A stretch of 42,080 nt of DNA, taken from Parvibaculum sp. (GTDB lineage Bacteria; Pseudomonadota; Alphaproteobacteria; Parvibaculales; Parvibaculaceae). Made by a program: the position numbers and the translations under genes. The DNA lies in NCBI GenBank assembly GCA_019635975.1, contig JAHBYM010000009.1, positions 1 through 42,080 on the forward strand, read 5' to 3'. This document shows, in pieces, positions 11,882 to 31,741 of this stretch. The notes below the pieces were generated by a model. It was given only the letters and a program-made list of their open reading frames with translations. It was not told the DNA's origin and did no database searches. Position 1 is the first letter of the stretch. Each line of letters opens with the position of its first letter.

Positions 11882-11884
11882 CGC

Positions 11885-13618: not shown

Positions 13619-13652
13619 CGCCGTGTTTCTCTGTTGCACTTGGTGCTTCAAT

Positions 13653-14904: not shown

Positions 14905-15018
14905 AAAACGCCCCCTACCTACTGTTACTTGCTGTACCCTCATTAGTTGTATGCGGTTGCAGCGACTCAAACCTTGGCTCAAAATCTGCATTTGTCTTGA
15001 GCGAATCTGTGAATAGGG
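14905..15018. promoter_or_regulatory. Divergent LysR/GNAT-MFS intergenic control region
   Basis: These 114 bp separate the LysR gene from the leftward GNAT-GNAT-MFS unit. LysR regulators usually bind such divergent regions at T-N11-A type sites. The stretch is more A/T-rich than its surroundings, but no single promoter is convincing by eye. Confidence 0.5.
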
Positions 15019-16020
15019 ATGACAAAGAATCCTCCTAGCAACGAGGCACCGGGTACCAAGTCGATTCCGACGTGGGATCGCGACGAGCTGCGTTTTGTTC
15101 TTGAGGCCGCCGCAACGCGGAGCCTGAACAGGGCGGCCACGCATCTCGGTGTGTCGAATGCGACGATCGGTACACGTATCGCGCAGCTTGAAGATCGCCT
15201 GGGCTACCGGATATTCGACCGATCGCCGCGCGGCGTGTTCTTGACCAGCCGGGGCGAGGCCATCGTCGCCGCCGCACGCAACGCGTATGTGGCCTTGGAG
15301 AAGCTCGAATTCACGGCAGCGAACATTGAAGTCCCGAACGTATCCCATGTCCGCCTTTCGATAACCGACGGCATCGCGACGTTCTGGATCGCGCCGAAGG
15401 TCGGCGCGTTCCATGCCGAGCATGCCGAGATCGTGCTCGAATGCAGCATTGGCGAGGAACCTGCCGATCCATTTCTCGCTCAGACGGATCTCAGTATCCG
15501 CATGCGCGCGCCCGACACGGAGGAATTTGTCGTTCGTCCGCTCGGGCATCTTCACTTGATCCCCTATGCGTCGAAAGACTACCTGGCGCGTCACGGGACG
15601 CCGCGCGACATGCGCGAACTCGCGCAACATCCGGTCGTCGATCACACCAGCTATCGGAACGCTCAGGGTCCCTGGTACACGTGGGACAATGCCGCGCGCT
15701 TGAGCGGACCGACCGCCCTGCGCACCAATATCGGCGCGATGACCGTCACGGCGGTCGAGCACGGGGCGGGAATCGGATTGCTGCCTTCCTATGTCAGTCT
15801 CATTAGCGATAGGCTGGTGCCGATCGATCTCAACTTCCATATGCGCAGTGACCTCATCCTGTGCTATCTGCGCGATGTCGGCGACGCCGTTGGCAAACGC
15901 GCCGTCGCAAACTGGCTGCAGGATGTTTTCGACCCAACCGTCTATCCCTGCTTCCGCGCCGAATTCGTTCATCCCCGAGATTTCGGCCGCGCTGGCGTGC
16001 CGGCCCCGCGTCGGCCATAG
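15019..16020 (+). CDS. LysR-family transcriptional regulator
   Basis: This 333-aa regulator has an N-terminal winged helix-turn-helix (about 22-80: LRFVLEAAATRSLNRAATHLG, SNATIGTRIAQLEDRLG, IFDRSPRGVFLTSRGE). A linker helix and the periplasmic-binding-protein-like effector domain follow (about 100-300). The HTH helix has SNATIGTRI where many LysR proteins read SQPAVSRQI, a normal variation for the branch acting like AmpR/GcvA relatives. The gene is divergent from the GNAT-GNAT-MFS unit and is most likely its regulator and autorepressor, by standard LysR logic. The effector is unknown. The purine-rich GGG is close to the ATG, so the start could be slightly different. Confidence 0.92.
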   Translation: MTKNPPSNEAPGTKSIPTWDRDELRFVLEAAATRSLNRAATHLGVSNATIGTRIAQLEDRLGYRIFDRSPRGVFLTSRGEAIVAAARNAYVALEKLEFTAANIEVPNVSHVRLSITDGIATFWIAPKVGAFHAEHAEIVLECSIGEEPADPFLAQTDLSIRMRAPDTEEFVVRPLGHLHLIPYASKDYLARHGTPRDMRELAQHPVVDHTSYRNAQGPWYTWDNAARLSGPTALRTNIGAMTVTAVEHGAGIGLLPSYVSLISDRLVPIDLNFHMRSDLILCYLRDVGDAVGKRAVANWLQDVFDPTVYPCFRAEFVHPRDFGRAGVPAPRRP

Positions 16021-16246
16021 AACCGGCGCTACGCATTCCCGACAGGTTCACGTCCGCAAAGCGCGCGCTTCGAACGCGCCGGCCTGCATCCGCGGCAGGC
16101 CGCTTCGTGATCGAGCGGCTACCCCTGTCGGCTTTTTGATAAAGGTGAATGGCGCCGGTTGAGCGAGAATCGACATGAAAGTTCGGTTCGGCACCCCCGG
16201 GGACAGTTTACGTTCGCCGGGCGGTGAGATGCAGGCTCCCCCGCTC

Positions 16247-16660
16247 ATGCCACGTGTACTGATCTTCGACGACGACACGGCGATCCTGGACGTTGTCACG
16301 AGGCTGTTGACGGACGCTGGCTATGACGTTGTCAGAGGTCAGCCCGGCCGAGGAGCCCGCAAGCAGGTTGGCCGCAGCAACTACGATATACTTCTCACCG
16401 ACATCTATATGCCCGATATCGACGGCATCGAGCTCGTTCGCGCCGCGCGGGAAGCGCGGCCCGATGTCCCCATTGTCTGCATGTCAGGCGGAACCTACAA
16501 GCTTTCGGCCGAGTTCAGCCTCAGTCTCTCCGGCGCGTTCGACGTCGAACAACTGCCAAAGCCGTTTGGGCGGACAGAATTATTGTTGGCGCTACAGACC
16601 GCATTGGGCCGTGGTGGCACTCAACCCGGTGCTTCGAAATCCTGCCACGCATCTCGCTAG
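16247..16660 (+). CDS. Single-domain response regulator (receiver)
   Basis: A 137-aa CheY-like receiver without an output domain. VLIFDDD supplies the acidic pocket (Asp8-Asp9), ILLTDIYMPDIDG holds the phosphoacceptor Asp52, CMSGG has the conserved Ser/Thr position, and LPKPFGRTELL carries the lysine of motif K-P-F. The open frame extends 24 codons upstream. ATG 16229, preceded by GGGCGGTGAG, is an equally possible start. Single-domain receivers work in phosphorelays or bind target proteins. No partner histidine kinase is encoded in the window. It is followed at some distance by a small gene and two MucR homologs. Confidence 0.88.
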   Translation: MPRVLIFDDDTAILDVVTRLLTDAGYDVVRGQPGRGARKQVGRSNYDILLTDIYMPDIDGIELVRAAREARPDVPIVCMSGGTYKLSAEFSLSLSGAFDVEQLPKPFGRTELLLALQTALGRGGTQPGASKSCHASR

Positions 16661-16949
16661 GCCGCCGGATGGCAAATTCGCTTCGGACCGGGGTTAGCCA
16701 GAATCCTAAAACCCCCTGATGGAACTGCGAGCAAGACATCACCCGAGGGCTCGGCGATCCTTGGGGGCGCTGGCCGGTCGTTTGCGGCAATTCGGCCGGT
16801 CGGCATCGCCGCGACAGGCGGTCGATTGTGCGGCGAGGCCAGTTCTCCCGATCGCGCATTGCATCGCCATCGCTCTGCGGGCCGTGGCGGCTAATTGCCG
16901 AAAGATTTCCCGACGCCACGACGGCGGCAAGACAGGACCCTGCATAAAA

Positions 16950-17234
16950 ATGTCGAACCCGGACATGCCCATCGCCCCTACGCCGGAAGCCGACGAGGCG
17001 GAAACCATAAGCATGTTGCGGACAATCCTGGGCGAATTGCAGGTGATCGAATGCCGGTTCGGCGCCTTATCAGATCGATTGTCGCCCGAGGACTTGAAGA
17101 TGATGTCCCTCTTTATCGGCATGGCGACATTGCGCACTTCGGCGATCATTGACGACGCGATGACTGAGGCGACGCACCAGCGCCACCGGGACCCTTCCTC
17201 ACATCTGCATGAGTTCACCGCCTCACAAGCATGA
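16950..17234 (+). CDS. Hypothetical small protein, 94 aa
   Basis: Not recognised. The ATG at 16950 opens a 94-residue acidic protein (SNPDMPIAPTPEADEAETISM), then predicted helices TILGELQVIECRFGALSDRL and SPEDLKMMSLFIGMATLRTSAIIDDAM, with a His-rich end. There are no membrane segments or cysteine motifs. AGGA lies 12 bases upstream, a weak ribosome-binding site. The frame is open further upstream, but that part is arginine-rich and looks like antisense shadow. It sits between the response regulator and the first MucR gene. Coding status is moderate. Confidence 0.5.
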   Translation: MSNPDMPIAPTPEADEAETISMLRTILGELQVIECRFGALSDRLSPEDLKMMSLFIGMATLRTSAIIDDAMTEATHQRHRDPSSHLHEFTASQA

Positions 17235-17308
17235 GCAGCCGCGCGGGGCGGGGAATGCAGCGCGCCGGCAGCGGAGACACGGTCGCCGCTATTCGGCTTG
17301 CCGAGGTT

Positions 17309-17758
17309 TCACTTGCGGCGTGTTTTGCGGGTCCGCGACGGCGGGCTCTTTTTTACGCGGCCAAGTCCGGTGTTCTTGGCGATTTTCGACCGCGCCAGCG
17401 CATAAGTGGGCGCTGTTAGGGGATAGTCGGCCGGAAGATTCCATTTCTGCCTATACTGGGCGGGCGCCAGTCCGTGTACCGTCCGCAGGTGGCGCTTGAG
17501 CATCGTCAACCCGACGCCGCATTCGAGGCAGATTATCTCGTCGTTCGAGATCGACTTGCTCACAGCGACGGCCGGCGCAAGCGTCGTGCCGCCGGCACAG
17601 GCGTCCTGCATTGCGGCATAAACCGTTTTCACAAGCGCCGGCACCTCATCGGCACTCAGATCGTTGCGCCCGACAAAGGCCGTGACGACCTGGGCGGCGA
17701 GTTGCATCAAAGTTCCCGGATCCGAATGCGACTTCGCAAAGCCAGACTGCATGTTCAT
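17309..17758 (-). CDS. MucR/Ros-family zinc-finger transcriptional regulator
   Basis: A 149-aa member of the alphaproteobacterial Ros/MucR family of nucleoid-associated repressors. The N-terminal helical oligomerisation part is QLAAQVVTAFVGRNDLSADEVPALVKTVYAAM. The zinc finger has Cys77 and Cys80 (CLECG) with His90 and His95 (LKRHLRTVHGL), followed by the diagnostic QYRQKWNLPADYPLTAPTYA and a basic tail. The ATG at 17758 is chosen, with a G-rich leader upstream; the longer frame begins with unrelated residues. It is divergent from a second MucR homolog starting at 18071, so the two may share a control region. MucR proteins often act on surface polysaccharides, virulence and foreign DNA. Confidence 0.92.
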   Translation of the reverse strand: MNMQSGFAKSHSDPGTLMQLAAQVVTAFVGRNDLSADEVPALVKTVYAAMQDACAGGTTLAPAVAVSKSISNDEIICLECGVGLTMLKRHLRTVHGLAPAQYRQKWNLPADYPLTAPTYALARSKIAKNTGLGRVKKSPPSRTRKTRRK

Positions 17759-18070
17759 GCACAGCACCCCCCGCCGAAGAGGCACGAGCCTCATCGCTGT
17801 TTCCCATGCGGCTACACTACGCCGCCGCGATCCCGGCGGCGACAAAAAACACGTATAGGTCGTGCTCGGTTGTATTTTGAGAACGTTTCATGCACAGACG
17901 GGCACAGCGCTACCGGCGTATTCGCACCGACCAACCGCGCAACTGATCGATCCTGTCATTTTGGTCTGACTTCGGCTCTTCTTGGTCCGATTTGGTTGTA
18001 ATTCTGGTAATTTCGGCGAGACCAAAGTCAAAGGCGAGTGATCGGGGTTTCAGGTGATCGCGGGGGTTGC

Positions 18071-18586
18071 ATGCGGGGGAGTGCCGTGACCAGACGGGCG
18101 GAGGACAGGGAGAGTCCGGATACGGCCGATCTGCTGGTTCTCACATCGATGATCGTCAGGGCACATGTCCGGAATAATTGGACGAGCCCGGAAGACCTTC
18201 CGCCGATGATCCGGGCGGTTCACGGTGCGCTCGCGACGCTTGGGGCACCGTCACTCTGCGCAGACCTGCAACCGGCGGTTCCCATCAAAAAGTCGGTTAC
18301 GCCTGAGTATCTCATCTGTCTCGAGGACGGGGCGCGGCTCAAGACATTGACCAGATATCTCCAACGTCGCTTCGGACTGACGCCTGAGCAGTACCGCGCG
18401 AAGTGGAAACTGCCGGTCAATTACCCGATGACCGCGCCGAATTCGGCGCGGCGATATCGTCAAGCGGCGCGTAACAATCGGGCCGGCAGACAGCGGAAGT
18501 CGGATCCGGATTCTCTGCGTCGGCACTTCGAGGGACGGATGACGGAACTTGATGACGCCATGCGCGGAGCGTACGACATCGGTTGA
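18071..18586 (+). CDS. MucR/Ros-family protein with degenerate zinc finger
   Basis: A 171-aa Ros/MucR homolog. It retains the N-terminal helices LLVLTSMIVRAHVRNNWTSPEDLPPMIRAVHGAL and the diagnostic FGLTPEQYRAKWKLPVNYPMTAPN. The finger is altered: Cys83 remains and Asp86 replaces the second cysteine (CLEDG, seen in other family members), but the two histidine positions are Tyr96 and Phe101. It therefore probably lacks structural zinc, as described for some Mesorhizobium homologs. A C-terminal extension of about 40 residues is extra. Start choice is uncertain: ATG 18071 has GGGGG upstream; GTG codons at 18038 and 18083 are alternatives. It may form mixed oligomers with the neighbouring intact MucR. 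Confidence 0.85.
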   Translation: MRGSAVTRRAEDRESPDTADLLVLTSMIVRAHVRNNWTSPEDLPPMIRAVHGALATLGAPSLCADLQPAVPIKKSVTPEYLICLEDGARLKTLTRYLQRRFGLTPEQYRAKWKLPVNYPMTAPNSARRYRQAARNNRAGRQRKSDPDSLRRHFEGRMTELDDAMRGAYDIG

Positions 18587-19006
18587 TCTGCTGTCGTTCC
18601 GTCAGACATATCGTCAGTCTCCCGGTTATATCTATTTCTAGCAAAGCTCAGGGTCGGCAAGACGTAGCGTACAAATTGGGAGCATAGTCGATTGCCGTTG
18701 AGGGGTGTTCGACGAACGTGATTCTGTTTCTGAAGCCGGCTATTCGGATACCTGCTTCATTTATCTTCGTCGACAAGCCAGATAAGCACCGGCAGCGGTG
18801 ATTTTGCGGGTGGGTTTGTTTCCTCAAGTCACGGTTCCGAAGACTGAGCACGACGTAGCATGATCTCTCGCAACGCTGCGTTTCAGCAGTTGGTTGTTGT
18901 CTTCAATGCGCCAAAAGCGGACAGATCGAGATTTGAACAATGAGGGCGGTCACCGATCTTCCCGACATTGCCGAGCAGGAAATCGGGGTGGAGGAAGACG
19001 ACGAAA
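18587..19006. other. 420-bp region without a supported gene
   Basis: Short minus-strand frames exist here (for example 18648-18851), but their composition is unlike the neighbours and no domain is recognisable. The stretch has the mosaic look of decayed DNA between the MucR gene and the end of the DUF4238 gene. No terminator was identified with confidence. Confidence 0.4.
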
Positions 19007-20113
19007 CTAAACAGGACCACGCCGCTTCGCATCCCAAACTTCCATAGCCTCCAACGCTTTCTCGACACGGGCAATGCAAGCTGGATCGCGAACCGGTGGG
19101 ATCTCATACAAGCCTAGCGTCGACGGTGTGGGAAGAATCGTCCTCACGAATTCTAGATCCAGCGTGATGGCGTAGGGAATATGTCCTGAACCATGACGCG
19201 TTCGCACCTCCTCGGGGGATCGCTCGACGATTTCCTCGCGGAATACGGTTCGCCCGGACTGACGCCGCAATTTCCAATACGCTGCATTAGAAGAAAACTG
19301 ATCCGGCGGCGTATCTGGATATCCAAGCAGGACGGCGTGAGCAGCTTCCCACTGAAGATCATTGAGGAGGCGGATCTGGGCTGGATTGTCGACGCTTACG
19401 ACATCGCTATCACGGCCTTCGATGGCGTAAGCGCCGGCATCATAGCCGAACAGTGCCAAACGCGGCCCAAGCGGTAGAAACAGCTGCAGACCGATATTTG
19501 CATATCCGATAACGCTGATAGGCAGGTTTTCATAGAGCCGGTTGTGGAGGACGACGGGCGTGTCCGAAGCGATAAACAGTGCGTCGCTCTCGTTGCGAAT
19601 GAGGACAAACGTCAGGTCCGTGAGTAAGCTCGCGCCGATCGTGGCATAGCGTACCACCTCGGCAACAGCGTTCGTCCGCCTAATCTGCACCTTGTCGAGA
19701 GCATCGAGAATTCTTCTGTCGTCTTCGAGTTCAGCCTTTCGTCGCAGCATCGCCTTGGCGAGCTTTTCCGAACGCTCATTGTGCTGTTCTGCGGCGCCCA
19801 TCGTCCGTGAATGCTGGATGCCGAGATAGAAGATCAGCCATTCATGCTCTTCGCTGTCAGGAGTCGGTAACCGATTATGTTCGACGGTATCAGCAAAGAT
19901 TTGGGCGGCGTGGCCCTCGATCGCACCGAATGCATTCTCCACGCAGGGATTTTTGCCGTAGAAATAGTCGCGGCAGGCTTGGCCGCGGATTGGTGCTTTG
20001 GGAATGAACTTCCCGCGATCGATGACATAGACCCCAACGTAATTCTCGTTCGGCCGCGCGAAAAGCCGCATATACATCTGGGGTACGAAATGATGGCGTT
20101 TGTGTTTGGGCAT
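19007..20113 (-). CDS. DUF4238 family protein, 368 aa
   Basis: The N-terminus KHKRHHFVPQMYMRLFA is the hallmark of DUF4238, a widespread family of unknown function, often on mobile DNA. Further conserved pieces are HEWLIFYLGIQHSRT, the Leu-rich LTDLTFVLIRNE, and FIASDTPVVLHN with the SDTP motif. No transmembrane segment is seen. The ATG at 20113 fits the domain start, but its GGGAG is directly adjacent. The frame stays open further, and an ATG at 20194 would overlap the end of the DUF6527 gene by 17 bp, implying coupling. It is the last gene of the leftward ubiquitin-like operon by position and strand; whether it belongs to the system is inference. Confidence 0.8.
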   Translation of the reverse strand: MPKHKRHHFVPQMYMRLFARPNENYVGVYVIDRGKFIPKAPIRGQACRDYFYGKNPCVENAFGAIEGHAAQIFADTVEHNRLPTPDSEEHEWLIFYLGIQHSRTMGAAEQHNERSEKLAKAMLRRKAELEDDRRILDALDKVQIRRTNAVAEVVRYATIGASLLTDLTFVLIRNESDALFIASDTPVVLHNRLYENLPISVIGYANIGLQLFLPLGPRLALFGYDAGAYAIEGRDSDVVSVDNPAQIRLLNDLQWEAAHAVLLGYPDTPPDQFSSNAAYWKLRRQSGRTVFREEIVERSPEEVRTRHGSGHIPYAITLDLEFVRTILPTPSTLGLYEIPPVRDPACIARVEKALEAMEVWDAKRRGPV

Positions 20114-20177
20114 CTCCCTATGGGGGCCTATCTGAATCTCATGTGTTCGAGGACGAATGGTAACGGGAACTCGCGCG

Positions 20178-20576
20178 TCAAAGTTGGAGACCATCGCCGT
20201 CGTAAGGCTTCCCGGTACCGGGACACCAATCGACGTGGCCATTTCGTATCCAAAAATGGCTGAAACAGCCCGTCCGTTGCCATATCGAGGGCGCAACGGT
20301 TGGCCGCCCGAAACAATCGGTGGAGACATACCATGAAGGTCTGCGGTTTGGGGTCAACGACAGAGAGATTTTCTCTCCACAACCGCACGGGCAACAGAAG
20401 CAGGCCCATTTCAGAAAATCGCCCGAACGTACGACTACAAAATCAGATTCCGATATCTCTGCTTTTGCGGGATTGGTTTCAGACACACGTACAATAAAGC
20501 GCGGCTTGGCGATAAAGCCGAATGTCGCCAGAAGCGATACGAGCCAAACCTTTAATGCCATGATGAAAGTTGTCAT
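20178..20576 (-). CDS. DUF6527 family metal-binding protein of the Ubl operon
   Basis: A 132-aa protein with a cysteine cluster WACFCCPCGCGE (Cys59-Cys66) and the conserved strand pattern ISLSLTPNRRPSWYV, PTVAPSIWQRTGCFSHFWIRNGHV. This matches DUF6527, a predicted zinc-binding family that recurs with multi-ubiquitin, Prok-E2 and ThiF-JAB genes. Its role is unproven; an adaptor or ligase-like part has been suggested from context. The N-terminus (6-22) is hydrophobic, possibly a membrane or hydrophobic contact helix. The start ATG at 20576 is 4 bp past the E1 stop, so coupling is likely; ATG 20561 is the alternative. Its end is antisense-free and close to the DUF4238 gene. Confidence 0.85.
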   Translation of the reverse strand: MTTFIMALKVWLVSLLATFGFIAKPRFIVRVSETNPAKAEISESDFVVVRSGDFLKWACFCCPCGCGEKISLSLTPNRRPSWYVSTDCFGRPTVAPSIWQRTGCFSHFWIRNGHVDWCPGTGKPYDGDGLQL

Positions 20577-20580
20577 GAAG

Positions 20581-21978
20581 TTAGCCCACGATGTCGAGGA
20601 ATGGATCGGTATCGCCAAGTCCCCATGCGTCGCGCACGCCGCAGACCGGGCAGGTATGCCGTGGCCTAGCAGTGGTAGCGCGATCCTCGGAGAACAAAAA
20701 TCGGCGGCGGATTTCGAAGCCCATGTTGCGTTTCCGGAAACCAACGATACGGTTCAGGAACTCATTCACAGCCATGCATGCGACTTCGGTAGTGAAGGTT
20801 ACAACCGCGGGGTTGGGATTTCCTTCGCCGCGGACATAGGCCTCGCGCTTGCGCCGCTCGTACTCAGTCGGCTCCTGGCGGCGAAGGTCCTCCTCGCGCG
20901 CAACCTCAACGTCGACGGCACCACGGCAAAGCAGGCAAGCCTCCGGCGGCATTACCGTTGTGACCCGCGCCGAGATGTCAGCCATACCGGCTACGGGCGG
21001 CTCGGCGACCGCCATAGCGAGGCCCATGTCGAATACCGGGATCAGATAGTAGTAGGCAAGACGGTTGAGGAACACGCGCCCGGCATGATCATCGGTACAA
21101 CAGAAAATCACGTCACAAGCTTTCAGCGCGTCGCGAACGTCCGGCGCGCTAACCCAACCGCGGAGAGGCAGGACACGCGCGCCGAGTGCCATGCGCGCGA
21201 CCTCTCGGGCGACGACTTCGGCCTTCGGTCGCATCGCATCAGCATCCATTTGCGTCGCGCCGTGCAAGCGGTTGAGGTTTGTAATTTCAACAATATCGTC
21301 GTCCACAATTAGAATCTGGCCCACGCCAGCCCGTGCCAGCAATGGCGCGGTCGCGCTGCCCGTGCCGCCCGCACCGATGACCCCAATGCGAAAATTCTTC
21401 AACTGATGAATTAAGGTAGGGCCGAAAGCAAGAATCTGACGAGCGAAGGCGGCTGACGCTGGTGCGGCGTCCGGACGATGAAACTGGATGCGCTCGCCGA
21501 TGAACATCACCGAGCGAACCGTTGATTGATGTTGGGGATACTGCCACACCCGCGCCAGCACTGTGCCATCGCCGCTAAAAAGCAGGCTTACCAGCTTTGC
21601 CGCAGCGCCATTTCGATTACACGCTGTGCGGAGCAATTCTGCCTCGTTGGCATCATCCTGCGCGGAAAATTCTGCCGGCCCCTTGGGGTGGCTGTGCGCG
21701 ATACCCAGAATTAGTTCCTCACGCTGCGCACGCTGCAAAAGCGCGACGTAGCTCACGGTATCCCAAGTGACGTGCATGCCGTCCGCTGAAACTGATTGGA
21801 TCGGGATGACCTCGCGGACGAGAAGCTTCGTATGCCTCCGCCGGTCCCACGGATCGTTGGTCATCTGCGCTTCCCGGAACAGGACGTAGGCCGCACCCTC
21901 AATGCCGGCGTTCTCGAAAAGCGCCGCACGCAATGCCGCCTCGTGCTCTTCGAGGCCGGTGATGCTGAACGTGGTCAT
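20581..21978 (-). CDS. JAB-ThiF fusion: JAMM deubiquitinase-like domain plus E1-like enzyme
   Basis: A 465-aa two-domain protein. Residues about 1-160 form a JAMM metallopeptidase: GIAHSHPKGPAEFSAQDD gives His95, His97, Ser105 and Asp108, the zinc site used to trim or remove ubiquitin-like tags. Residues about 190-440 form a ThiF/E1 adenylation domain: GVIGAGGTGS (ATP loop, 199-208), an acidic triad DDD at 226-228, NLNR with Arg237, and CCTDD near 293-297. Cys348/Cys351 (CLLC) and Cys443/Cys446 (CPVC) look like a structural zinc site. The E1 would adenylate the C-terminus of the tandem Ubl protein. It overlaps the E2 gene by 4 bp (ATGA). Confidence 0.93.
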   Translation of the reverse strand: MTTFSITGLEEHEAALRAALFENAGIEGAAYVLFREAQMTNDPWDRRRHTKLLVREVIPIQSVSADGMHVTWDTVSYVALLQRAQREELILGIAHSHPKGPAEFSAQDDANEAELLRTACNRNGAAAKLVSLLFSGDGTVLARVWQYPQHQSTVRSVMFIGERIQFHRPDAAPASAAFARQILAFGPTLIHQLKNFRIGVIGAGGTGSATAPLLARAGVGQILIVDDDIVEITNLNRLHGATQMDADAMRPKAEVVAREVARMALGARVLPLRGWVSAPDVRDALKACDVIFCCTDDHAGRVFLNRLAYYYLIPVFDMGLAMAVAEPPVAGMADISARVTTVMPPEACLLCRGAVDVEVAREEDLRRQEPTEYERRKREAYVRGEGNPNPAVVTFTTEVACMAVNEFLNRIVGFRKRNMGFEIRRRFLFSEDRATTARPRHTCPVCGVRDAWGLGDTDPFLDIVG

Positions 21979-22352
21979 GCGGCCGCCTCCAGCGCGGCAT
22001 CCAACCGCCGTAGCATTGTCCAGATTCCGTCAATGCCGGGACGCCACTGGTCCTGATGCCGCGACCACCGTTGCCAGCGCTGGCCGCTGAAGTCGAACGG
22101 TTGGTCCGCGCAGTTGGGATAGCGGTCACCCTTTACCAGCTTGAGCCACGGCAGTGCGTAGAACATGTCAGGGCGGACGTCCGGGTAACCGTTAGGCAGG
22201 ACGATCAGAAAATCCGCTTTCTCGACGTTGAAGCGGCCCGACGGTACAGGATAGGCCCGCAGAATAATCGCTTTCTGCGGGCCATCGACTTCTTCGAACG
22301 CCACCGCGTGCTCGTCAAGATATTTGCGACAGCGTGACGGTAGGACGCTCAC
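21975..22352 (-). CDS. Prok-E2_E family ubiquitin-conjugating-enzyme-like protein
   Basis: This 125-aa protein matches the Prok-E2 family E fold: KADFLIVLPNGYPDVRPDMFYALPWLKL (the UBC sheet and proline-rich strand) and the family-specific GQRWQRWSRHQDQWRPGIDGI. Cys81 in RYPNCADQ is the only cysteine in the likely active-site segment and is the candidate thioester residue, though family E is divergent and this is not proven. The start is GTG at 22352, overlapping the Ubl stop codon (GTGA), and the end overlaps the E1 start (ATGA). Such double overlap shows tight coupling. It would accept the Ubl from the E1 and pass it to a target. Confidence 0.88.
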   Translation of the reverse strand: MSVLPSRCRKYLDEHAVAFEEVDGPQKAIILRAYPVPSGRFNVEKADFLIVLPNGYPDVRPDMFYALPWLKLVKGDRYPNCADQPFDFSGQRWQRWSRHQDQWRPGIDGIWTMLRRLDAALEAAA

Positions 22353-22846
22353 AGCAAGCCCTCCGTAGTGTGCTTCATCACCGTGTAGAAGCGCTCAAGA
22401 CCCTCGGGGCTGAGTTGCGCCGGATGTCCTGCCGTGATCTCTTCGTCGGGCTTCTTCTGGAACTCCTGCCAGACTGAGAACTTCGCAGGGTCCTGCTGCG
22501 CGATTGCCAGCAGCACTTCCCGCGCGATCGTCTTGTCGGGCCACGAGTGCCGCTTGCCGTCGATCTCGAATTTGAAAAGCTGGCTGCTGCGGGCGACGAT
22601 AAAGCGCTCGGCCCCCGGTGCGCGGAGGTCGGTGGTTTCATCCAGTTCCAGTTCTTCGAGATCGCCGTCCTTCAGCCATTCAAGGACAATGAACTCGGCC
22701 GCCGGACGGCCTGCTGCGACTTCAATGATCTGGCGCCCGGTGGGAACTGGATCGGACACCTGATAATCGTGGAACTTGAGATCGGTGCCTGCCACAAGGA
22801 TGCGAAAGGCGAGTGATTCCGGGGTAAGGGATTGATTCTGCTGCAT
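22349..22846 (-). CDS. Tandem ubiquitin-like (multiubiquitin-domain) protein
   Basis: This 165-aa protein contains two beta-grasp ubiquitin-like domains: about 13-86 (FRILVAG, TGRQIIEVAAGRP, LRAPGAERFIVAR) and about 89-165 (FKFEIDGKRHSWP, REVLLAIAQQDP, FYTVMKHTTEGLL). The spacing of TGRQIIE and the G-x-E-RF strand matches the multiubiquitin family. The C-terminus ends Gly163-Leu-Leu, not a bare glycine, so removal of two leucines by the JAMM domain would expose Gly163; this is inference. AGGAG lies eight bases before the ATG. It is the first gene of the leftward operon, and the next gene starts within its stop codon. Confidence 0.9.
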   Translation of the reverse strand: MQQNQSLTPESLAFRILVAGTDLKFHDYQVSDPVPTGRQIIEVAAGRPAAEFIVLEWLKDGDLEELELDETTDLRAPGAERFIVARSSQLFKFEIDGKRHSWPDKTIAREVLLAIAQQDPAKFSVWQEFQKKPDEEITAGHPAQLSPEGLERFYTVMKHTTEGLL

Positions 22847-22960
22847 TTCGGAAACTCCTGATCGTTTTACCGGAACGACTTTACACTATTCATATTTTGC
22901 TTGTCAATTAGGCAATATTGCTTTACGTATTTCGGAAGTTGCATGACATGGAGGACTGGC
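22847..22960. promoter_or_regulatory. Divergent promoter region of the Ubl and AAA-protease operons
   Basis: A 114-bp A/T-rich stretch drives both operons. On the minus strand TTGACA (22907-22902) is followed after 16 bp by TGTAAA (22885-22880), a fair promoter match for the Ubl operon. The perfect palindrome GCAATATTGC at 22912-22921 is a candidate operator. A rightward promoter is not clear. The AAA protein has a C-terminal helix-turn-helix and could bind here. Confidence 0.5.
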
Positions 22961-24091
22961 GTGCCGATTGACCCAAAAGACTTGATTGAACTGATCGATG
23001 CGGCACTGGCGGCGGACTACACACGTGTGCGTCGAATGGCGACCGGCGCTGCGCGGACGCTGGAAAAGGATGGCGCTGTCGATGCAGCGACGGAGCTTCG
23101 CGCGCTCGTTAGGAAGCGCGGGGTACCGCTGCGCGCATCCGGATACATGGAATCGTTACCAGTGGACGCGAAATCTCGACTGCCCTTAGTCGAGGAACAG
23201 CCATGGCCAGGAAACCCACTGTTCCTAAACGAAGAAGCGGCGCGCACCTTTCAGGATTTTCTCGGCGATGTAGAGAACATCGACAAGCTCAGCAGCAAGG
23301 GGCTCGCCTCGCGCCTTGCACTCATGCTCTCTGGCCCCCCCGGCACCGGCAAGACCTTGCTCGCCGGGCACGTCGCCGCGCGCCTAAACCGACCTTTCTA
23401 CGTCGTGCGTCTCGATTCTGTCATTTCGTCACTGCTGGGCGATACCGCGAAAAACATCCGCACCGTGTTCGACTATGTCCCTTCGAAAAATGCCGTTCTC
23501 TTTCTTGATGAAATGGACGCAGTCGCGAAGTTGCGCGATGACCGACACGAGCTTGGTGAACTCAAACGCGTCGTCAACACCGTAATTCAAGGTTTGGATT
23601 CGCTCGACGAACATGCAGTTGTTGTTGGTGCGACCAATCATCCGCAACTGCTTGACTCCGCAATCTGGCGGCGTTTTCCCTACAAGATCGAATTGAAAAC
23701 TCCCGAGACAGAAGTGCGTGCCGATTTGTGGCGCTACTTCTTGTTCGAAGACAAGGATGACGACGCGCGAGCAGAAGATCTAGCCGTGATCTCGGATGGC
23801 CTGTCAGGCGCCGATATCGAGACCGTGGCGCTAACTGCGCGCCGCCATGCCCTGCTGGACAACCGGGAACTTGACCTCGGTACGGTCGCGCTCGCGATCA
23901 TGAACACGCGCGCTGGCCGCACATCTATGCCGCAAAAAGAACCTCTAGAGTCCGATCAGAAGCGCCAGCTTGCAATTGCGCTCAAGGACAAAGGAGAGCT
24001 TACAGTCACCAACATCGCGCGGCTACTCAATGTCACCCGCCAATCCGTCTACCTCTATCTGAAACCGGAGGGCGATACATCCCATGGCTGA
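22961..24091 (+). CDS. AAA+ ATPase with C-terminal helix-turn-helix
   Basis: A 376-aa AAA+ ATPase. It has an N-terminal helical part (1-110), Walker A GPPGTGKT at 125-132, Walker B AVLFLDEMD (Asp183-Glu184), sensor 1 in GATNH (Asn226) and arginine-finger candidates RR at 237-238. The small helical lid includes DGLSGADIETVALTARR. The last 30 residues, ELTVTNIARLLNVTRQSVYLYL, form an HTH, unusual for an unfoldase and suggestive of DNA binding. GTG 22961 is preferred because GGAGG lies six bases upstream; ATG 22943 with GGAAG is the alternative. It overlaps the protease gene by 8 bp, so the two probably form one complex or pair. Confidence 0.9.
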   Translation: MPIDPKDLIELIDAALAADYTRVRRMATGAARTLEKDGAVDAATELRALVRKRGVPLRASGYMESLPVDAKSRLPLVEEQPWPGNPLFLNEEAARTFQDFLGDVENIDKLSSKGLASRLALMLSGPPGTGKTLLAGHVAARLNRPFYVVRLDSVISSLLGDTAKNIRTVFDYVPSKNAVLFLDEMDAVAKLRDDRHELGELKRVVNTVIQGLDSLDEHAVVVGATNHPQLLDSAIWRRFPYKIELKTPETEVRADLWRYFLFEDKDDDARAEDLAVISDGLSGADIETVALTARRHALLDNRELDLGTVALAIMNTRAGRTSMPQKEPLESDQKRQLAIALKDKGELTVTNIARLLNVTRQSVYLYLKPEGDTSHG

Positions 24092-26327
24092 TGATCGACC
24101 GCTGTTAAATCCCGTTCTTCGACTGAAGATGGACGGCAAACCTGAGCCCCAAGCCGGCGGCGGAAAAGGACGCGCAAGCATCGTAGTCGAGCGCCTCGCA
24201 GCGCAGCAACGCGTTTTGTCCGCGGCGGCACGCAATTTGTATCGTGACCGGGAGCGACTTCCGACATATGGCGGACGCACCCATTTACTCGTGCGTATGT
24301 TCGCAGAAGATTCGCTCGCACCTTCGCACACGCCCGACGATCTGTTCTCGAACGTGACCGGCTGCCAGTTGGTCGCACCATACCGGCACGGATATGTGGT
24401 GGAAGCGGAGATCGCGGCACTGCCGCGCTTAACAGCTGCGATTGAGAATCCTGTGAGCTTCGCGGTGCAATCGGACATCTCACGAGTATCGACCCTTGCT
24501 GCGTTTTCTACCGATGACCGGTTGCGCCATCACTCCGTCGAGCAACTCTGGAATGCCGCTCCTGCAAACGATGACGGCCGGTTGTTCGTGGTGTGGCTTG
24601 CGCCATTTCGCAATCGAGAAGCGCAAGAAGAAGTCTTGCGCGAGGTCGAAACACTGTCCAACCGCATCATGCTTCCGACCTTCACCGCGATCCAACTTAC
24701 GAGCCTTGGTGCCCCCGCGCCACCGGGTAGCCTGCCTACCACGCAGCGACAATCCAGCATCGCCCGCGCTATGCGTATGTACCGCAATACCGGGATCGGG
24801 CGTGCCACGGTGCGCATTCCGAGGATGGAAGCTCTGAACCAACTCGTCGCCTCGGGTGTTTCGCATCGTATCGATCCGGTAAGACCCATCCGGGTCGCAG
24901 CACCCGGCGAGGGGACCGAGCCACCGCCGCCATCGGTACCAGCGGATGCACCGATCGTAGGCGTGGTGGATGGCGGACTCCATGCGGCGAGTTATTCCGC
25001 AGCGGAAGCGTGGCGCGCGCCGCCGCTCGTTTCAGATGCGCAGGCGGACAGGCGGCACGGCAACGCCATCACCTCCCTCATCGTGCAGGGGCACGCTTGG
25101 AATACGAACCGTCCTCTCCCGGCGCTCACCTGTCGGGTCGGCACGGTTCAGGCAGTGCCGCATGAAACCGCAAACCGACGTTTCGATGAGCGCGAACTGA
25201 TCGAATACCTTGCTGCCGTGGTGCGCGCCCATCCCGAAACACATGTCTGGAATATCTCCGCCAATCAAGAAGGTCCGCAATTTGACCCAGACGAGATCAG
25301 CGTTCTTGGTCATGAAATTACCGAACTAGCGCGCGCGGCAAACATCCTTCCGGTGGTATCGGTCGGCAATGTGCGCAGCGGAACGCGCACTCGACTTAGC
25401 CCACCGGCCGATAGTGAAGCAGCTATCACCGTCGGGGGCCGTCAAGCGGACGCGCAAGGCCACCCGGCAGGCGCCTGCCCGCGATGCTTAACCGGGCCCG
25501 GCCCCGACGGCATGCTGAAGCCTGATGTCGCATGGTTCTCGGAACTTCGTATGATCGGCGGTGCGGTTGGCGCCGCGAGCAGCTATCCAACTGCACTGGT
25601 TTCTTCGCTTGCTGCACATACGTTTGCCAACCTCCGTGAGCCAACACCTGACCTTGTGAAGGCGTTGATGATCGACACAGGCGAGCGCAATGAGCATGAT
25701 GCGGGGCTCGGCTGGGGTACACCCTTTCACGGCACGCTGCCATGGTTATGCGAACAAGGGAGCGTCACGCTGGCTTGGCGGGCAAAGCTTCAACCAGGTG
25801 CCAACTATTACTGGAGTGGCATTCCGATCCCTCCGGAATTGGTCCGCAACGGCAAGCTCTATGGCCGCGCAAGTCTCACTGCGATCTTGCGCCCCCTAAT
25901 TTCGCCTTTCGCCGGCGCGAATTATTTTGCCTCGCGTCTGCAAACCTCGCTCCGGTATCCGACCGGCGCCGATGATTGGGAGCCGCTCGTCGGCAAGATG
26001 CTGGAATCGACGCTTAGGGAGCAGGACGCGCGAGAGGAACTCAAGAAGTGGCAGCCGGTGCGGCGTCATACCCGCGATTTCACGCACCGTGATGGCATCG
26101 CGTTCAATGGCACCCACCTACAACTCTACGCGCGCGTTTTTACACGGGATCTGTACCAATTCGGCTGGAACCATCACAGCCAGGTGGGCGAGCAGGATGT
26201 CGCGTTTGTGCTTACCCTCTGGAGCGGCGACGGCGGCAGTTCAATCTACAATTCAACCGTCAATGGACTTGGCAACTTCGTTGAAAGTGCGGTGATAAAC
26301 CAGGACATCGAATTGAAGAATGACTAG
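24084..26327 (+). CDS. Subtilisin-like (S8) serine protease paired with the AAA ATPase
   Basis: A 747-aa protein. About 290 residues precede the S8 domain, without a signal peptide, so it is likely cytoplasmic. The catalytic triad is Asp296 (VGVVDGG), His325 (RRHGNAITSLI) and Ser500 (ASSYPTALVSSLAAH, where the usual GTSMAAP is altered but alignable). An oxyanion Asn is probable in WNISANQ. VSVGNVRSG and AITVGG fit the S8 core. A C-terminal portion of about 200 residues (from WRAKLQPGANYYW) is beta-rich and may bind substrates. It overlaps the AAA gene by 8 bp. AAA-subtilase pairs occur on many mobile elements; their targets are largely unknown. Confidence 0.88.
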   Translation: MADDRPLLNPVLRLKMDGKPEPQAGGGKGRASIVVERLAAQQRVLSAAARNLYRDRERLPTYGGRTHLLVRMFAEDSLAPSHTPDDLFSNVTGCQLVAPYRHGYVVEAEIAALPRLTAAIENPVSFAVQSDISRVSTLAAFSTDDRLRHHSVEQLWNAAPANDDGRLFVVWLAPFRNREAQEEVLREVETLSNRIMLPTFTAIQLTSLGAPAPPGSLPTTQRQSSIARAMRMYRNTGIGRATVRIPRMEALNQLVASGVSHRIDPVRPIRVAAPGEGTEPPPPSVPADAPIVGVVDGGLHAASYSAAEAWRAPPLVSDAQADRRHGNAITSLIVQGHAWNTNRPLPALTCRVGTVQAVPHETANRRFDERELIEYLAAVVRAHPETHVWNISANQEGPQFDPDEISVLGHEITELARAANILPVVSVGNVRSGTRTRLSPPADSEAAITVGGRQADAQGHPAGACPRCLTGPGPDGMLKPDVAWFSELRMIGGAVGAASSYPTALVSSLAAHTFANLREPTPDLVKALMIDTGERNEHDAGLGWGTPFHGTLPWLCEQGSVTLAWRAKLQPGANYYWSGIPIPPELVRNGKLYGRASLTAILRPLISPFAGANYFASRLQTSLRYPTGADDWEPLVGKMLESTLREQDAREELKKWQPVRRHTRDFTHRDGIAFNGTHLQLYARVFTRDLYQFGWNHHSQVGEQDVAFVLTLWSGDGGSSIYNSTVNGLGNFVESAVINQDIELKND

Positions 26328-26513
26328 CCGAGAGCAGCAGTGCGAGCTCGTTGCGCTCGTTAATCTGATATGGACAACTCTTTGGAGAGACAATAGGAAC
26401 GTCCGCTTCTGGCGCGAACCCGCCATTCGTCCGGCGGGAAACGACAGTCCGCCTTGGGTGAAAACTAAACCCTGAACATTTGGACCGTTGTGTGAAACCA
26501 ATGACAGCTTCCC

Positions 26514-26543
26514 GGGTTCCGAAAACAAATCTTTTCGGAACCC
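26514..26543. terminator. Perfect 12-bp inverted repeat downstream of the protease gene
   Basis: GGGTTCCGAAAA and TTTTCGGAACCC are separated by CAAATC. The stem lies 187 bp after the protease stop. It has no T-run after the stem, so it may be a Rho-dependent pause, an attenuated terminator, or an end of a decayed element. Confidence 0.4.
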
Positions 26544-26650
26544 TCCGCACCCTGTCAATTGCCCCAGCTTTTCTGCGCATTTCACGGCGGACAATCTGGG
26601 GGGTTTTTGGAACCCTTAGGTGCCAACTCCGGTCGTGACATTCGCGTCAC

Positions 26651-26730
26651 TGACCGGCCCCCTGAGTTGTCCAGGTTCGGTGTTAGTTCAAGCCCTGCGG
26701 TAGCGCCAGCGTGTGCGCGCCCGGGTAGCG
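26651..26730 (+). repeat. Imperfect 80-bp direct repeat, copy 1
   Basis: It starts TGACCGGCCCCCTGAGT and includes TAGTTCAAGCCCTGC. About 80% identical by eye to 27244-27323. The two copies bracket the small minus-strand gene pair. It may be a remnant of an insertion-sequence end or an element duplication. Confidence 0.65.
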
Positions 26731-26732
26731 TC

Positions 26733-27014
26733 CTAATTTGAAAACGTGGACAAGACAGACGAGAGCGCGCCAAACGTTATTGAAATGGCGGTCCAAGTGG
26801 CGGCCCTTACATTGAGGGCGCCTGCTTTCCTGATCGTTTCAACAGTGGCGACTATCCAATGTGCCGCGCTCTGAGAGGGGTCAACGGGCTTCATCTGCTC
26901 GTATTCTTCCCACATAGGAATAACGTGCACCTTACTTGCTTTGTACCAATATCTCGCGGCAATGACCCCCGACGCAAAGGCTGCCATCGCAAGGGAGACA
27001 ACGAGGTACCTCAT
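26733..27014 (-). CDS. Hypothetical small membrane protein, 93 aa
   Basis: Not recognised as a named family. The N-terminus MRYLVVSLAMAAFASGVIAARYWY is a clear transmembrane segment or signal anchor. A soluble middle follows (KVHVIPMWEEYEQMKPVDPSQSAAH), and a second hydrophobic segment AATWTAISITFGALSSVLSTF ends the chain. The topology is therefore likely two-helix with the short loop on one side. The ATG overlaps the TGA of a smaller gene upstream (27011-27181) as ATGA, so the two are translated together. Possible small toxin, holin-like protein or accessory protein; no evidence selects among them. Confidence 0.7.
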   Translation of the reverse strand: MRYLVVSLAMAAFASGVIAARYWYKASKVHVIPMWEEYEQMKPVDPSQSAAHWIVATVETIRKAGALNVRAATWTAISITFGALSSVLSTFSN

Positions 27015-27181
27015 TTTGCCCTCTGCTCCACTACGGCAGCCGCTCGCACCGCGTCCTGAGGCGTGTTGATCGGAGGTACTAGCTCCACGGCAATGACCCG
27101 GCGCTTGCCGTCGTCTCGCTCATTGGACCATGCGAAGGCCCGTATAACCTTTGGATGCCCGGCTAGGTCAAGGACATGCAC
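27011..27181 (-). CDS. Hypothetical very small protein, 56 aa
   Basis: A GTG start at 27181 is preceded by GGGAGGG (27192-27186) at good spacing. The product starts MHVLDLAGHPKVIRAFAW and is charged and soluble, with NERDDGKRRVIAVELVPP as a strand-like middle. Its stop overlaps the start of the 93-aa membrane protein gene by 4 bp (ATGA), which supports real coding. The frame remains open upstream to 27281 without other start codons, and part of that overlaps the second 80-bp repeat. Function unknown. Confidence 0.55.
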   Translation of the reverse strand: MHVLDLAGHPKVIRAFAWSNERDDGKRRVIAVELVPPINTPQDAVRAAAVVEQRAK

Positions 27182-27243
27182 GGTTCCCTCCCGGACGGTT
27201 TCGCCTTTGAAGATCTCTGTAACGGAGGCAGACTGGACAAGCG

Positions 27244-27323
27244 TGACCGGCCCCCTGAGTGGTCCAAGTACAATGCTAGTTCAAGCCCTGCAGTAACGCT
27301 AGCGTGCGCGCGACGAGATAGCA
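27244..27323 (+). repeat. Imperfect 80-bp direct repeat, copy 2
   Basis: Second copy of 26651-26730, sharing TGACCGGCCCCCTGAGT and TAGTTCAAGCCCTGC with scattered mismatches. Confidence 0.65.
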
Positions 27324-27451
27324 CAAGCAGACGCTTTTCCGCTTCCAAGGTATTGTGAATACGACTAAGGGGAACTGATTCGGCGCCGCGCAGCTCGGGA
27401 TGGGCTGTAATCGTGCTGTCCTAACAACGCGTTCCGCACAGCGAGGATGCA

Positions 27452-29197
27452 ATGTCAATCGAGACCGTTGTTGCGCGCGTTCATGCTTCTCTCGACGAAA
27501 TCGAGAACATGGTATCAGGCGGGATAAATTTTCCGCTGGAAGCATATGTCGACGCGATAAGCCTCAACGCACTGTGTGGCGCACTTAGGGTCGCTCCGAA
27601 AGACTGGCGCGCAGACGAGTTGATGCGGATTCTTCTGATTCGCGACGGCCTGTACGACACTCGGAATCGGCTACGCGATGTAGGCGATGATGCCGAGCAC
27701 TCGCTCGAACGGCTCCTATCGGTCACTGACCGGCTCTATGCAGACCTTGAACGGGCACTTCGCGATCTGGACAAGAACGAGTTGGACGCAGCGCAGGGTA
27801 GTCTCGCAGAAATGCGGCGTGGACCGCAGATACCGTCCGCGACCATCGCGGGGACTCTGTCCAACATTGGTCAAGAGGCGAACGCTTTACTCGCGCAGAC
27901 CAGCGTCACGCACAACCACATCGAAGTGAACCTCCTTAGGATCGAGCGATCACAATTGAATGTTGATGTGAATGTCGTCGTTGAGCTTCTGAAGTCCGCT
28001 CAGCTAAAAATCAGACGACTGAGCGCCAATGTTTTCGCAATCAAGCTTCAGCTAGAACAGACTGTCATCTTTCAGGGGATTTATAAGTTCCTCACGAACG
28101 GCGCGGATAAAGTCGTCTCGGAATTGAAGGAGCTGGTCACTGAGATTAAGCGGGCATACGCAACGGCGACCGACTTCGTTTCAGATATAGTCAATTTGGC
28201 AGAGAAAGGGGGGCGCTTCTCGCGTCTAGTGGCGGACATGCTCGGTCACGCGTTCGGCGATGATACCGGCCCCGCCCCACGACACGTTGATTTTAGAGTC
28301 CAGAAATATCAACAAAGCGACGCTATTTTGAGTGGCTTGCATGCCGACGGGGCAAACGTGCTCCTCGGGAATAAGGACGGCTACTTGTGGACCATGGACG
28401 TTGATTCCGGAGCAGTGACGGAGCAAGAGAGGCTTGCCAACGCCGGAATAACGAGCATCGCAAAATTCGATTCGCAGTTTGAAAAGTACTTCGCCATCGG
28501 CACCGAGGATGGACTAGAGGTTACTTTCGCTGTCGGTCGGGCGCGAACTGGCTTTCAGGCCCCATATCGCGAGCACGTCGCGGCGGTCGCAACTCCTCGG
28601 TGGGGGGACGCCATAGTAACGGGGACACGCGACGGCATCGTGCGCCGTTGGTCGTTGGCTGGCGGCTTGTCGCAACACTCCCCGGAATCGACCCGGAAAA
28701 TCGACCGGAGTATTCAGCGGATGACCGTCCACGGGGAGCGCCTCATTGCTGCATCTGGCGAACATTTGCAGTTCTTAGACGAAGACCTGAATACGGTGCA
28801 ACGTGTCGGCGTTGACTTCAAAATCAGCGATATGGTGTTCGTGGGTAGAGATGCGATGATCGTCTGTGGCGCGGGGCACATTGCGCATGTGAATTTGCAG
28901 GGTGGTATCTATTCACGTTTTCTCATCTCGTCGTCCGAAGTCAAGTACTCCAGTCTTGCCGTTTTGGATGACGGGATTTTCTGCGTAGGCACGGAAGATG
29001 GGTTCATTTCTGCAATTGACTTTAGTTCCGGCGAAGAGATTGGACGCGTTGATGTAGGCTTTCCGGTGCGCGGGCTGCTAACTGCAAAGGGCAAGCTCAT
29101 TGCCTACGGCGGCGATTGGAAACGACGCGGCCGCTCCGCAGCAATCTTGAACTGGCGAGAGGTGATGGACGCCGACGCTGCGCGTGGTCTCGCTTAG
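27452..29197 (+). CDS. Helical-domain plus beta-propeller (WD40-like) protein, 581 aa
   Basis: No named family is recognised. Residues 1-290 are strongly helical, with coiled-coil-like LERLLSVTDRLYADLERALRDLDKNELDAAQGSLAEM and a stretch LEQTVIFQGIYKFLTNGADKVVSELKELVTEIK. Residues about 291-570 contain repeats of about 40 residues (ANVLLGNKDGYLWTMDVDSG, DAIVTGTRDGIVRRWSLAGG, DGIFCVGTEDGFISAIDFSSG) that fit a WD40/PQQ-like beta-propeller. No signal peptide is visible. GAGG lies six bases before the ATG. It could be a sensor-effector or scaffold encoded in the island, a layout seen in some bacterial conflict systems, but this is inference. A terminator-like hairpin lies about 200 bp downstream. 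Confidence 0.8.
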   Translation: MSIETVVARVHASLDEIENMVSGGINFPLEAYVDAISLNALCGALRVAPKDWRADELMRILLIRDGLYDTRNRLRDVGDDAEHSLERLLSVTDRLYADLERALRDLDKNELDAAQGSLAEMRRGPQIPSATIAGTLSNIGQEANALLAQTSVTHNHIEVNLLRIERSQLNVDVNVVVELLKSAQLKIRRLSANVFAIKLQLEQTVIFQGIYKFLTNGADKVVSELKELVTEIKRAYATATDFVSDIVNLAEKGGRFSRLVADMLGHAFGDDTGPAPRHVDFRVQKYQQSDAILSGLHADGANVLLGNKDGYLWTMDVDSGAVTEQERLANAGITSIAKFDSQFEKYFAIGTEDGLEVTFAVGRARTGFQAPYREHVAAVATPRWGDAIVTGTRDGIVRRWSLAGGLSQHSPESTRKIDRSIQRMTVHGERLIAASGEHLQFLDEDLNTVQRVGVDFKISDMVFVGRDAMIVCGAGHIAHVNLQGGIYSRFLISSSEVKYSSLAVLDDGIFCVGTEDGFISAIDFSSGEEIGRVDVGFPVRGLLTAKGKLIAYGGDWKRRGRSAAILNWREVMDADAARGLA

Positions 29198-29391
29198 CTC
29201 GCAGACCCGTTGCATGCCGTGCGCTCCTCGCTAAATGATAAACGGCATCGGCAGCAGCCCATAATGAACTCAGCGCTGTAAGATCGGCGATCTGAGCATG
29301 CATCGATCCATTCAAATTTGTTTGCAACCTGTTGCAAAGCGCAAGACTCATTGTTCGCAGCAGGCCCCGAACGCCTTTCGACAAAGCCAAT

Positions 29392-29417
29392 AAAAACCTC
29401 CCTAGTGAGGCTTTTTT
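29392..29417. terminator. Probable intrinsic terminator
   Basis: AAAAACCTC-N6-GAGGCTTTTTT forms a stem with one A-C mismatch and ends in T-runs on both strands, so it may act in both directions. It lies about 195 bp after the propeller gene and faces the replication-remnant frame from the other side. Confidence 0.6.
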
Positions 29418-29459
29418 CTTCAGGCCCGGTGGGGCACCAAAGAGCATGAACGTCCCCTG

Positions 29460-29741
29460 TCAAGCTTTGCCGGGGTTCTGGGAGCGTGTTTCTACGATGT
29501 CGTATAGTTGCCGGCGCGATTGCCGCTGATCGATCCGCACGCGGCCAAACAAAACTCTCCAACTCTCTCGCACTTTCGCGTTGTCGATGATTTCCACTAC
29601 CGACGCCGAAGGCGAGCGGCTTTCTAAGTTCTCTTCTCTAGAAGTTCTATTCTTATAGGGGGCAATTTTTGACCCTCCGGGGGTCAAATTCTGACCTAAG
29701 TATGGGGCAAGATTTGACTTACGTTTGCGTGTTTTGACCAC
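29460..29741 (-). pseudogene. Possible remnant of a replication-initiator-like protein (about 93 aa)
   Basis: The frame encodes KRKSNLAPYLGQNLTPGGSK, then IAPYKNRTSREENLESRSP, then VVEIIDNAKVRESWRVLFGRV. The motif S/Q-N/K-L/I-A/T-P occurs three times, at nucleotide spacings of 21 and 24 bases. Such short SN.TP-type repeats are familiar in linkers of some phage and plasmid replication proteins. Only this fragment is open; a stop is nine codons upstream, and no intact DNA-binding domain is present. The assignment is tentative, and a genuine small gene starting with GTG at 29741 is possible. The DNA repeats (29659-29719) could instead be iteron-like. Confidence 0.35.
29659..29719. repeat. Three iteron-like GGGG-N-CAA..TTTGAC repeats
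   Basis: Copies at 29659-29674 (GGGGCAATTTTTGACC), 29680-29696 (GGGGTCAAATTCTGACC) and 29704-29719 (GGGGCAAGATTTGACT). Spacing is a multiple of three, so protein-level repetition explains them as well as a DNA-binding array does. Confidence 0.5.
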
Positions 29742-29770
29742 CCATTCTTGTCGCTCTTACTCGGAGCGTG

Positions 29771-31170: not shown

Positions 31171-31261
31171 GGCCTGCCTCTCCTTAACAAGCTAGCCCCA
31201 TACCGGACTACAATACGGTTTTCTTTAATATAACACAGTACACTCCGTTCCCGAAAGATTT

Positions 31262-31282
31262 TCTCGGAACGAAACTCCGAGA
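31262..31282 (+). promoter_or_regulatory. Candidate XRE autoregulatory operator
   Basis: TCTCGGA-ACGAAAC-TCCGAGA: perfect 7-bp arms, 7-bp spacer, ending directly before the ATG of the XRE gene at 31283. XRE repressors commonly bind such dyads over their own ribosome-binding site or promoter. A TATAAC -10-like box lies at 31229-31234. Confidence 0.5.
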
Positions 31283-31675: not shown

Positions 31676-31741
31676 TACGTCCAGGCCTCAAAGACCGCTC
31701 TCGCACAGCCCCTCTTAGAGATCACCATTTGCGCTTCACAA

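Follow-up and report, generated by a model that had tools for sequence, protein, structure and literature searches.

Organization of the locus

The window analyzed here, i.e., the complete stretch of 42,080 nucleotides from contig JAHBYM010000009.1 of a Parvibaculum species (assembly GCA_019635975.1), contains a predicted ubiquitin-like (Ubl) conjugation operon of the Bub type, which diverges from a gene pair assigned to IetA and IetS, an AAA ATPase and a subtilisin-family protease (together IetAS). All seven genes recognized in an earlier sequence-only reading of the window are located where they had been placed, and Pfam matches agree with the families claimed for them (Table 1).

Table 1. 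Features of the Parvibaculum locus and their positions in the window
Feature	Position	Strand	Evidence or remark
IetA, Cdc48/FtsH-type AAA ATPase, C-terminal helix-turn-helix	22961..24091	+	Pfam AAA 4e-28; PADLOC IetA 5e-102
IetS, subtilisin-family protease	24084..26327	+	Peptidase_S8 4e-11; PADLOC IetS 9e-60
BubA-like tandem Ubl, 165 aa	22349..22846	-	Pfam Multi_ubiq 6e-29, two stretches; C-terminus TTEG|LL
BubB-like E2, 125 aa	21975..22352	-	Pfam Prok-E2_E 2e-45
BubCD-like JAMM peptidase-E1 (ThiF) fusion, 465 aa	20581..21978	-	Prok-JAB 7e-12 and ThiF 6e-39
DUF6527, Cys-rich, probable metal-binding protein	20178..20576	-	Pfam 2e-22; phmmer matches in 87 loci
DUF4238 protein, variable 3' cargo	19007..20113	-	Pfam 1e-30
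Divergent promoter region common to both halves, 114 bp	22847..22960		Length assumes IetA start GTG at 22961
Tripartite element TTTAC-N16-TTGTCAA-N14-TTTAC, 47 bp	22880..22926	+	
Promoter-like site within the element, reading towards the Ubl operon, TTGACA-18-TAAAGT	22878..22907	-	Consensus scan
tRNA-Val island of about 26 kb, carrying the whole set	5517..31845		Direct repeats, integrase, lower G+C inside

The leftward genes display the sequence features of a Bub-type (polyUbl) operon, namely a multi-ubiquitin Ubl protein, a BubB-type E2 and a BubCD-type JAB-E1 fusion with intact motifs, and are assigned to this type, with conjugation activity only predicted. The set of multi-Ubl, E2, E1-JAB and DUF6527 had been recognized as a known one, in agreement with the closest solved structures, which are those of Citrobacter BubB for the E2 (PDB 9eae and 9eav, E about 7e-12 to 8e-12) and Citrobacter BubCD for the JAB-E1 fusion (PDB 9ea4, 8e-37); the Ubl protein matches the multi-ubiquitin structures 8u38 and 9d5b at about 6e-27. 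The fusion retains the JAMM motif HSHP-x6-SxxD at residue 95 and the E1 adenylation loop GAGGTGS at residue 202, and the E2 shows the invariant pattern WQRWSRH..WRPG.DG and no invariant cysteine in an alignment of eight homologues. Many Ubl homologues end exactly at TTEG and others bear a short tail beyond it, suggesting that this tail may be trimmed by the JAMM domain. DUF6527, for which no solved structure was found by sequence search, is likely protein Y of the polyUbl operons foreseen by Iyer et al. in 2006, which combine a metal-binding protein with an inactive E2 and a JAB-E1 (PMC1779556, table row 6e). The Ubl/E2 and E2/JAB junctions are 4-bp overlaps, and a 4-bp gap separates the JAB-E1 and DUF6527 genes. 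The DUF4238 open reading frame, with its most likely start at 20113, is present in the leftward operon as had been claimed, but it is not a conserved member and was rejected as a core part, since phmmer found none in any other E2 locus.

For the rightward genes, an undescribed protease pair was considered and rejected, as PADLOC identifies them as IetAS, which is known as a module of the toxin-antitoxin and anti-phage kind. Their scores remain under the strict equivalog cut-offs of NCBIfam (IteA, 313 of 510 bits; IteS, 189 of 900 bits), indicating that the pair, whose genes overlap by 8 bp, is a divergent member of this family; its toxicity and anti-phage activity are predictions. The Walker motifs of the AAA domain of IetA are intact (Walker A GPPGTGKT at residue 125), and the C-terminal helix-turn-helix (HTH) is apparent from Pfam matches and the alignment, as well as from a three-helix bundle in the AlphaFold2 model (helices 331-343, 349-356 and 360-367). 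In IetS, the catalytic triad D296, H325 and S500 had been named correctly and is invariant across 14 homologues; no solved structure was found for it by sequence search, and its AlphaFold2 model was poor (mean predicted local distance difference test score, 52.9) and was left unused. In relatives from SGI1 (PMC5006074) and a mycoplasma (PMC8562856), IetS is a toxin which is neutralized by IetA as antitoxin, and the mechanism of IetAS has been described as unknown (PMC9958689).

The shared promoter region and its 47-bp element

The control region which had been proposed to be common to both halves is indeed a divergent spacer, and it carries a tripartite element. The three blocks of the element follow each other at exact 21-bp steps and lie on one helix face, and their spacing is identical in four divergent Ubl-linked loci and in three stand-alone rhizobial ietAS loci (pRi1724, pRL8 and pRetNIM1c), where the divergent gene codes for a DUF2188 protein. 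The spacers of these seven loci are alignable, with local alignment scores of 20-25 vs shuffled maxima of 15. In the 3.26-Mb assembly the element occurs as a single copy at up to one mismatch (control, zero), and it is absent from the other Ubl loci of the comparison set, being found among the loci compared only at these ietAS loci. The occurrence at stand-alone ietAS and the absence from other Ubl loci argue that the element belongs to ietAS, with the Ubl operon occupying the divergent flank. IetA is the obvious candidate for binding it, because it bears the C-terminal HTH. The consensus scan of the spacer returned one promoter-like site for the Ubl operon vs 0.3 expected, which is weak alone.

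DUF2188 genes are found beside stand-alone ietAS as well as within Ubl operons, as in Bradyrhizobium, or directly preceding the Ubl gene, as at several further loci. Copies of these various settings lie at L128:5519-5743, L043:8486-8713 and L038:11158-11403, the last being below the Pfam cut-off, and DUF2188 represents a possible third part common to both systems.

Recurrence of the linkage

Ubl loci were collected by an E2 alignment search, yielding 80 genome loci (the best 80 of 161 matches) plus plasmid loci, and were counted as linked if a complete IetA and IetS occurred within 10 kb. This was the case at 18 of the 87 distinct Ubl loci, which is probably a lower bound, given the short length of some contigs and the restriction to the top 80 of the 161 matches. 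The linked loci fall into four groups. Group a consists of divergent arrangements with a spacer of about 100 bp, comprising the window, a metagenome-assembled genome with an E2 90% identical to that of the window (L047), a plasmid of Bradyrhizobium quebecense (L038) and B. lablabi (L048). In group b, from the Rhodobacterales, IetAS is located co-directionally downstream of DUF6527 in one Rhodovulum and two Paracoccus loci (L071, L072 and L092), the IetS match of L072 being split over several frames. Group c contains ten beta- and gammaproteobacterial loci (Burkholderiales, Azoarcus, Aquitalea and Dokdonella), in which IetAS provides the first two genes of a long operon with the order IetA, IetS, a sigma70_r4-like protein, a protein of 197 amino acids, an M78/UvrD/PDDEXK protein, a Ubl-E2 fusion, JAB-E1 and DUF6527. 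Group d is a loose case represented by a single Rhodocyclales metagenome-assembled genome (L093), with IetAS upstream and converging on HTH/ImmA genes. The linkage is retained over considerable divergence, as indicated by identities to the window of 67% for the E2 of the B. quebecense plasmid and of 75 and 64% for IetA and IetS, respectively, of B. lablabi.

The group c operon of eight genes (L113:1117-12130 and nine similar loci) is of interest in itself for its M78-UvrD-PDDEXK and Ubl-E2 fusions; at L113 it is tightly packed, with 4-bp overlaps and gaps below 60 bp.

A view on the neighbor families, counted per 70% JAB-E1 cluster, shows that after the core genes HTH/ImmA/GNAT families occur in 10-13 of the 30 clusters and integrases in five, followed by IetA and IetS in four each; the few families tied with them at four are smaller and are either further regulator-like pairs or found at scattered distances. 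IetAS is thus the most recurrent partner of Ubl operons bar regulators and integrases. In 50 Ubl-bearing genomes, 18 strong IetS loci (at least 75 bits) were found, 12 of them linked to the Ubl locus and six elsewhere, whereas the 20 kb searched around a Ubl locus corresponds to about 0.4% of a genome. Random placement would predict well under one linked copy, a contrast which is softened by clustering on islands; three tight and different arrangements are not easily produced by such clustering. An IetS scoring at least 75 bits is present in about 12 genomes of a 385-genome class sample, and the three Ubl operons over the cut-off in this sample are too few for adjacency statistics.

Independent origins of the linkage

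Each of groups a, b and c forms one starred clade in the JAB-E1 tree, and all four groups stand apart from each other.

INDEPENDENCE

In the IetAS tree, the linked sequences appear in four places among stand-alone IetAS, representing four lineages. A single clade of linked sequences is rejected by approximately unbiased (AU) tests for both JAB-E1 (p 1e-103) and IetAS (p 1.6e-7), these values being indicative, as the trees were built quickly and contain long branches. Gain and loss are not separable by parsimony counts; loss alone is insufficient as an explanation, because the IetAS partners stem from different lineages. The genome comparison thus shows that a Ubl operon and IetAS came together on at least three or four separate occasions. 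The sequence-only reading had suspected a link between the two halves and had named adjacency restricted to close relatives as the outcome speaking against it; what was found instead are complete IetAS pairs in four separate Ubl-operon clades, drawn from four IetAS lineages. Repeated separate joining suggests that the two systems work together, and a functional link, whose biochemistry we infer while the linkage itself is observed, appears rather probable.

Genomic island and neighboring genes

The whole gene set is carried by a tRNA-Val island (tRNA-Val and island region, 5459-31845). The island, which takes in the end of the tRNA-Val gene and a phage-type integrase (5625-7334), is bounded by att-like direct repeats of 20 bp (5517-5536 and 31826-31845). 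Two Ros/MucR regulators are encoded just past the Ubl operon on its 3' side (17309-17845 on the minus and 18038-18586 on the plus strand), and ietS is flanked by a gene (27452-29197) for a protein of 581 amino acids with C-terminal beta-propeller-like repeats and weak WD40-type matches. A RadC-like JAB-fold gene (9939-10646) adjoins a resolvase and an IS1595-type transposase elsewhere in the island. Carriage by phages was rejected, as no E2 match was obtained in 50,697 phage records; one partial viral contig was noted.

Other Ubl operons are followed by different genes. On a plasmid of Paracoccus marcusii, the operon is directly followed by genes for DarT and a macro domain, resembling DarTG (L044:11246-13032), and in one mainly rhizobial clade a conserved uncharacterized protein and a dCTP deaminase follow at ten loci, L041:11626-13181 among them. 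A universal effector slot at the 3' end is not supported, since many Ubl operons lack a co-directional gene there.

Possible modes of cooperation

The arrangement may represent a composite module against invaders or stress, consisting of Bub-type Ubl conjugation and IetAS with IetA as a switch, a reading to which we give an even chance at best. IetA, a Cdc48-like antitoxin ATPase with a C-terminal HTH, would keep the IetS protease in check and, bound to the 47-bp element, would repress both divergent promoters. Infection or damage might remove or occupy IetA, so that IetS and the Ubl cascade would be freed together. The JAMM domain would trim the Ubl to TTEG, the E1 domain would activate it, the E2 would pass it on to targets, and the JAMM domain would remove it again; conjugation might either tune the toxin by tagging IetA or IetS, or constitute a second attack on the invader. 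The more specific version of this composite, in which Ubl conjugation directly gates the AAA-ATPase/subtilisin toxin or feeds substrates to it and IetA is both antitoxin and promoter-bound switch of the Ubl operon, is proposed only tentatively.

Several points weigh against such a composite. Ubl operons without IetAS are common, as is stand-alone IetAS, which shows that each can do without its partner, and both halves reside on mobile islands, which raises the chance of co-location. The Rhodobacterales loci and L093 carry HTH/ImmA genes in addition to IetAS, and IetA need not regulate there. Moreover, we infer both the binding of IetA to the element and the conjugation of Ubl to any target, and phage protection by Bub operons is undemonstrated (PMC13373217).

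According to the strongest alternative, two independent defense modules merely reside together on a defense island, with the common promoter reflecting compact packing. Both halves are indeed located on the tRNA-Val island, stand-alone IetAS also adjoins restriction, Shedu and integrase genes, the association at L093 is loose, the nearest rhizobial IetAS have no Ubl operon and most Ubl operons have no IetAS. However, the halves have been joined tightly at least three independent times in differing geometry and stay associated through large divergence, the Ubl operon is placed on the exact control element of ietAS, and in the vicinity of Ubl operons IetAS ranks above other families that are neither regulatory nor mobile. 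We regard independence of the two modules as rather unlikely.

Degradation in the manner of the ubiquitin-proteasome system, with IetA recognizing and unfolding Ubl-tagged proteins for cleavage by IetS, would fit the recurrent pairing with Ubl conjugation and the relatives of IetA, which are Cdc48/p97 as the nearest solved ones by sequence and the AAA folds of FtsH, Vps4, p97 and the proteasome by structure. Yet the similarity of IetA to p97 is confined to the generic AAA core, IetS is by sequence no compartmental protease, IetA neutralizes IetS as an antitoxin in the relatives mentioned, and stand-alone IetAS works without a neighboring Ubl operon, making this mode improbable. A purely regulatory role of IetAS as a replacement of CapH+CapP, with IetA as repressor and IetS removing it as the ImmA-type CapP cleaves CapH, is very improbable, because IetS alone is toxic in relatives (PMC5006074, PMC8562856), the Rhodobacterales and L093 have HTH/ImmA genes as well, and the beta- and gammaproteobacterial IetAS is co-directional instead of divergent, even though IetAS combines an HTH, a protease partner and a common control element in the same divergent slot as the HTH+ImmA genes missing from the window's clade.

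Hundreds of Bub operons are known (PMC13373217), and the repeated pairing gives each system the other as context. It predicts that IetA, IetS or their cleavage targets are substrates, that IetA acts as regulator through a defined 47-bp element, and that toxicity is a phenotype which can be scored in a laboratory strain. A direct link would mean that, in bacteria, a protease toxin can be coupled to ubiquitin-like modification.

Comparison with known systems

With the Bub operons and the polyUbl operons of row 6e, the leftward genes share the Ubl, the E2, the JAB-E1 fusion and the metal-binding DUF6527-type protein. They differ in their DUF4238 cargo at the 3' end and in having IetAS as promoter-side neighbor in place of CapW, CapH+CapP or CapK+CapS, regulators which are found at 219 + 59 of 544 Bub operons and are therefore common, but not defining (PMC13373217). 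This slot is occupied by IetAS in all four loci of group a, and in many other Ubl loci by HTH and ImmA/IrrE genes, which we liken to CapH+CapP by resemblance. As the Rhodobacterales keep both IetAS and the HTH/ImmA genes, IetAS does more than take the place of a regulator. Bil (BilABCD) and CBASS with Cap2/Cap3 resemble the operon in their E1/E2/JAB logic and defense setting. However, Bil has a separate E1 (BilD) and JAB (BilC) (PMC11354881) instead of a single fusion, and Cap2 of type II CBASS is an E1-E2 fusion, whereas the E2 of the window is encoded by a separate, Cys-poor Prok-E2_E gene; PADLOC models of E1-E2 match only the ThiF part of the JAB-E1, and a scan of the genes examined returned no CD-NTase.

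The rightward pair shares with IetAS of pTiC58, SGI1 and mycoplasma (TA132/3) an AAA ATPase and an overlapping S8 protease gene of the same families, and with the stand-alone rhizobial ietAS the same control element, which faces DUF2188 there and the Ubl operon in the window. The suggestion that the combination might be undescribed thus does not hold for the AAA-S8 pair, which is known as IetAS, while the pairing itself is likely new: our literature search, which did not reach the main Bub papers, found none linking Bub and IetAS. Both halves are of known kinds, and the finding consists in their repeated joining and in the ietAS control element common to them.

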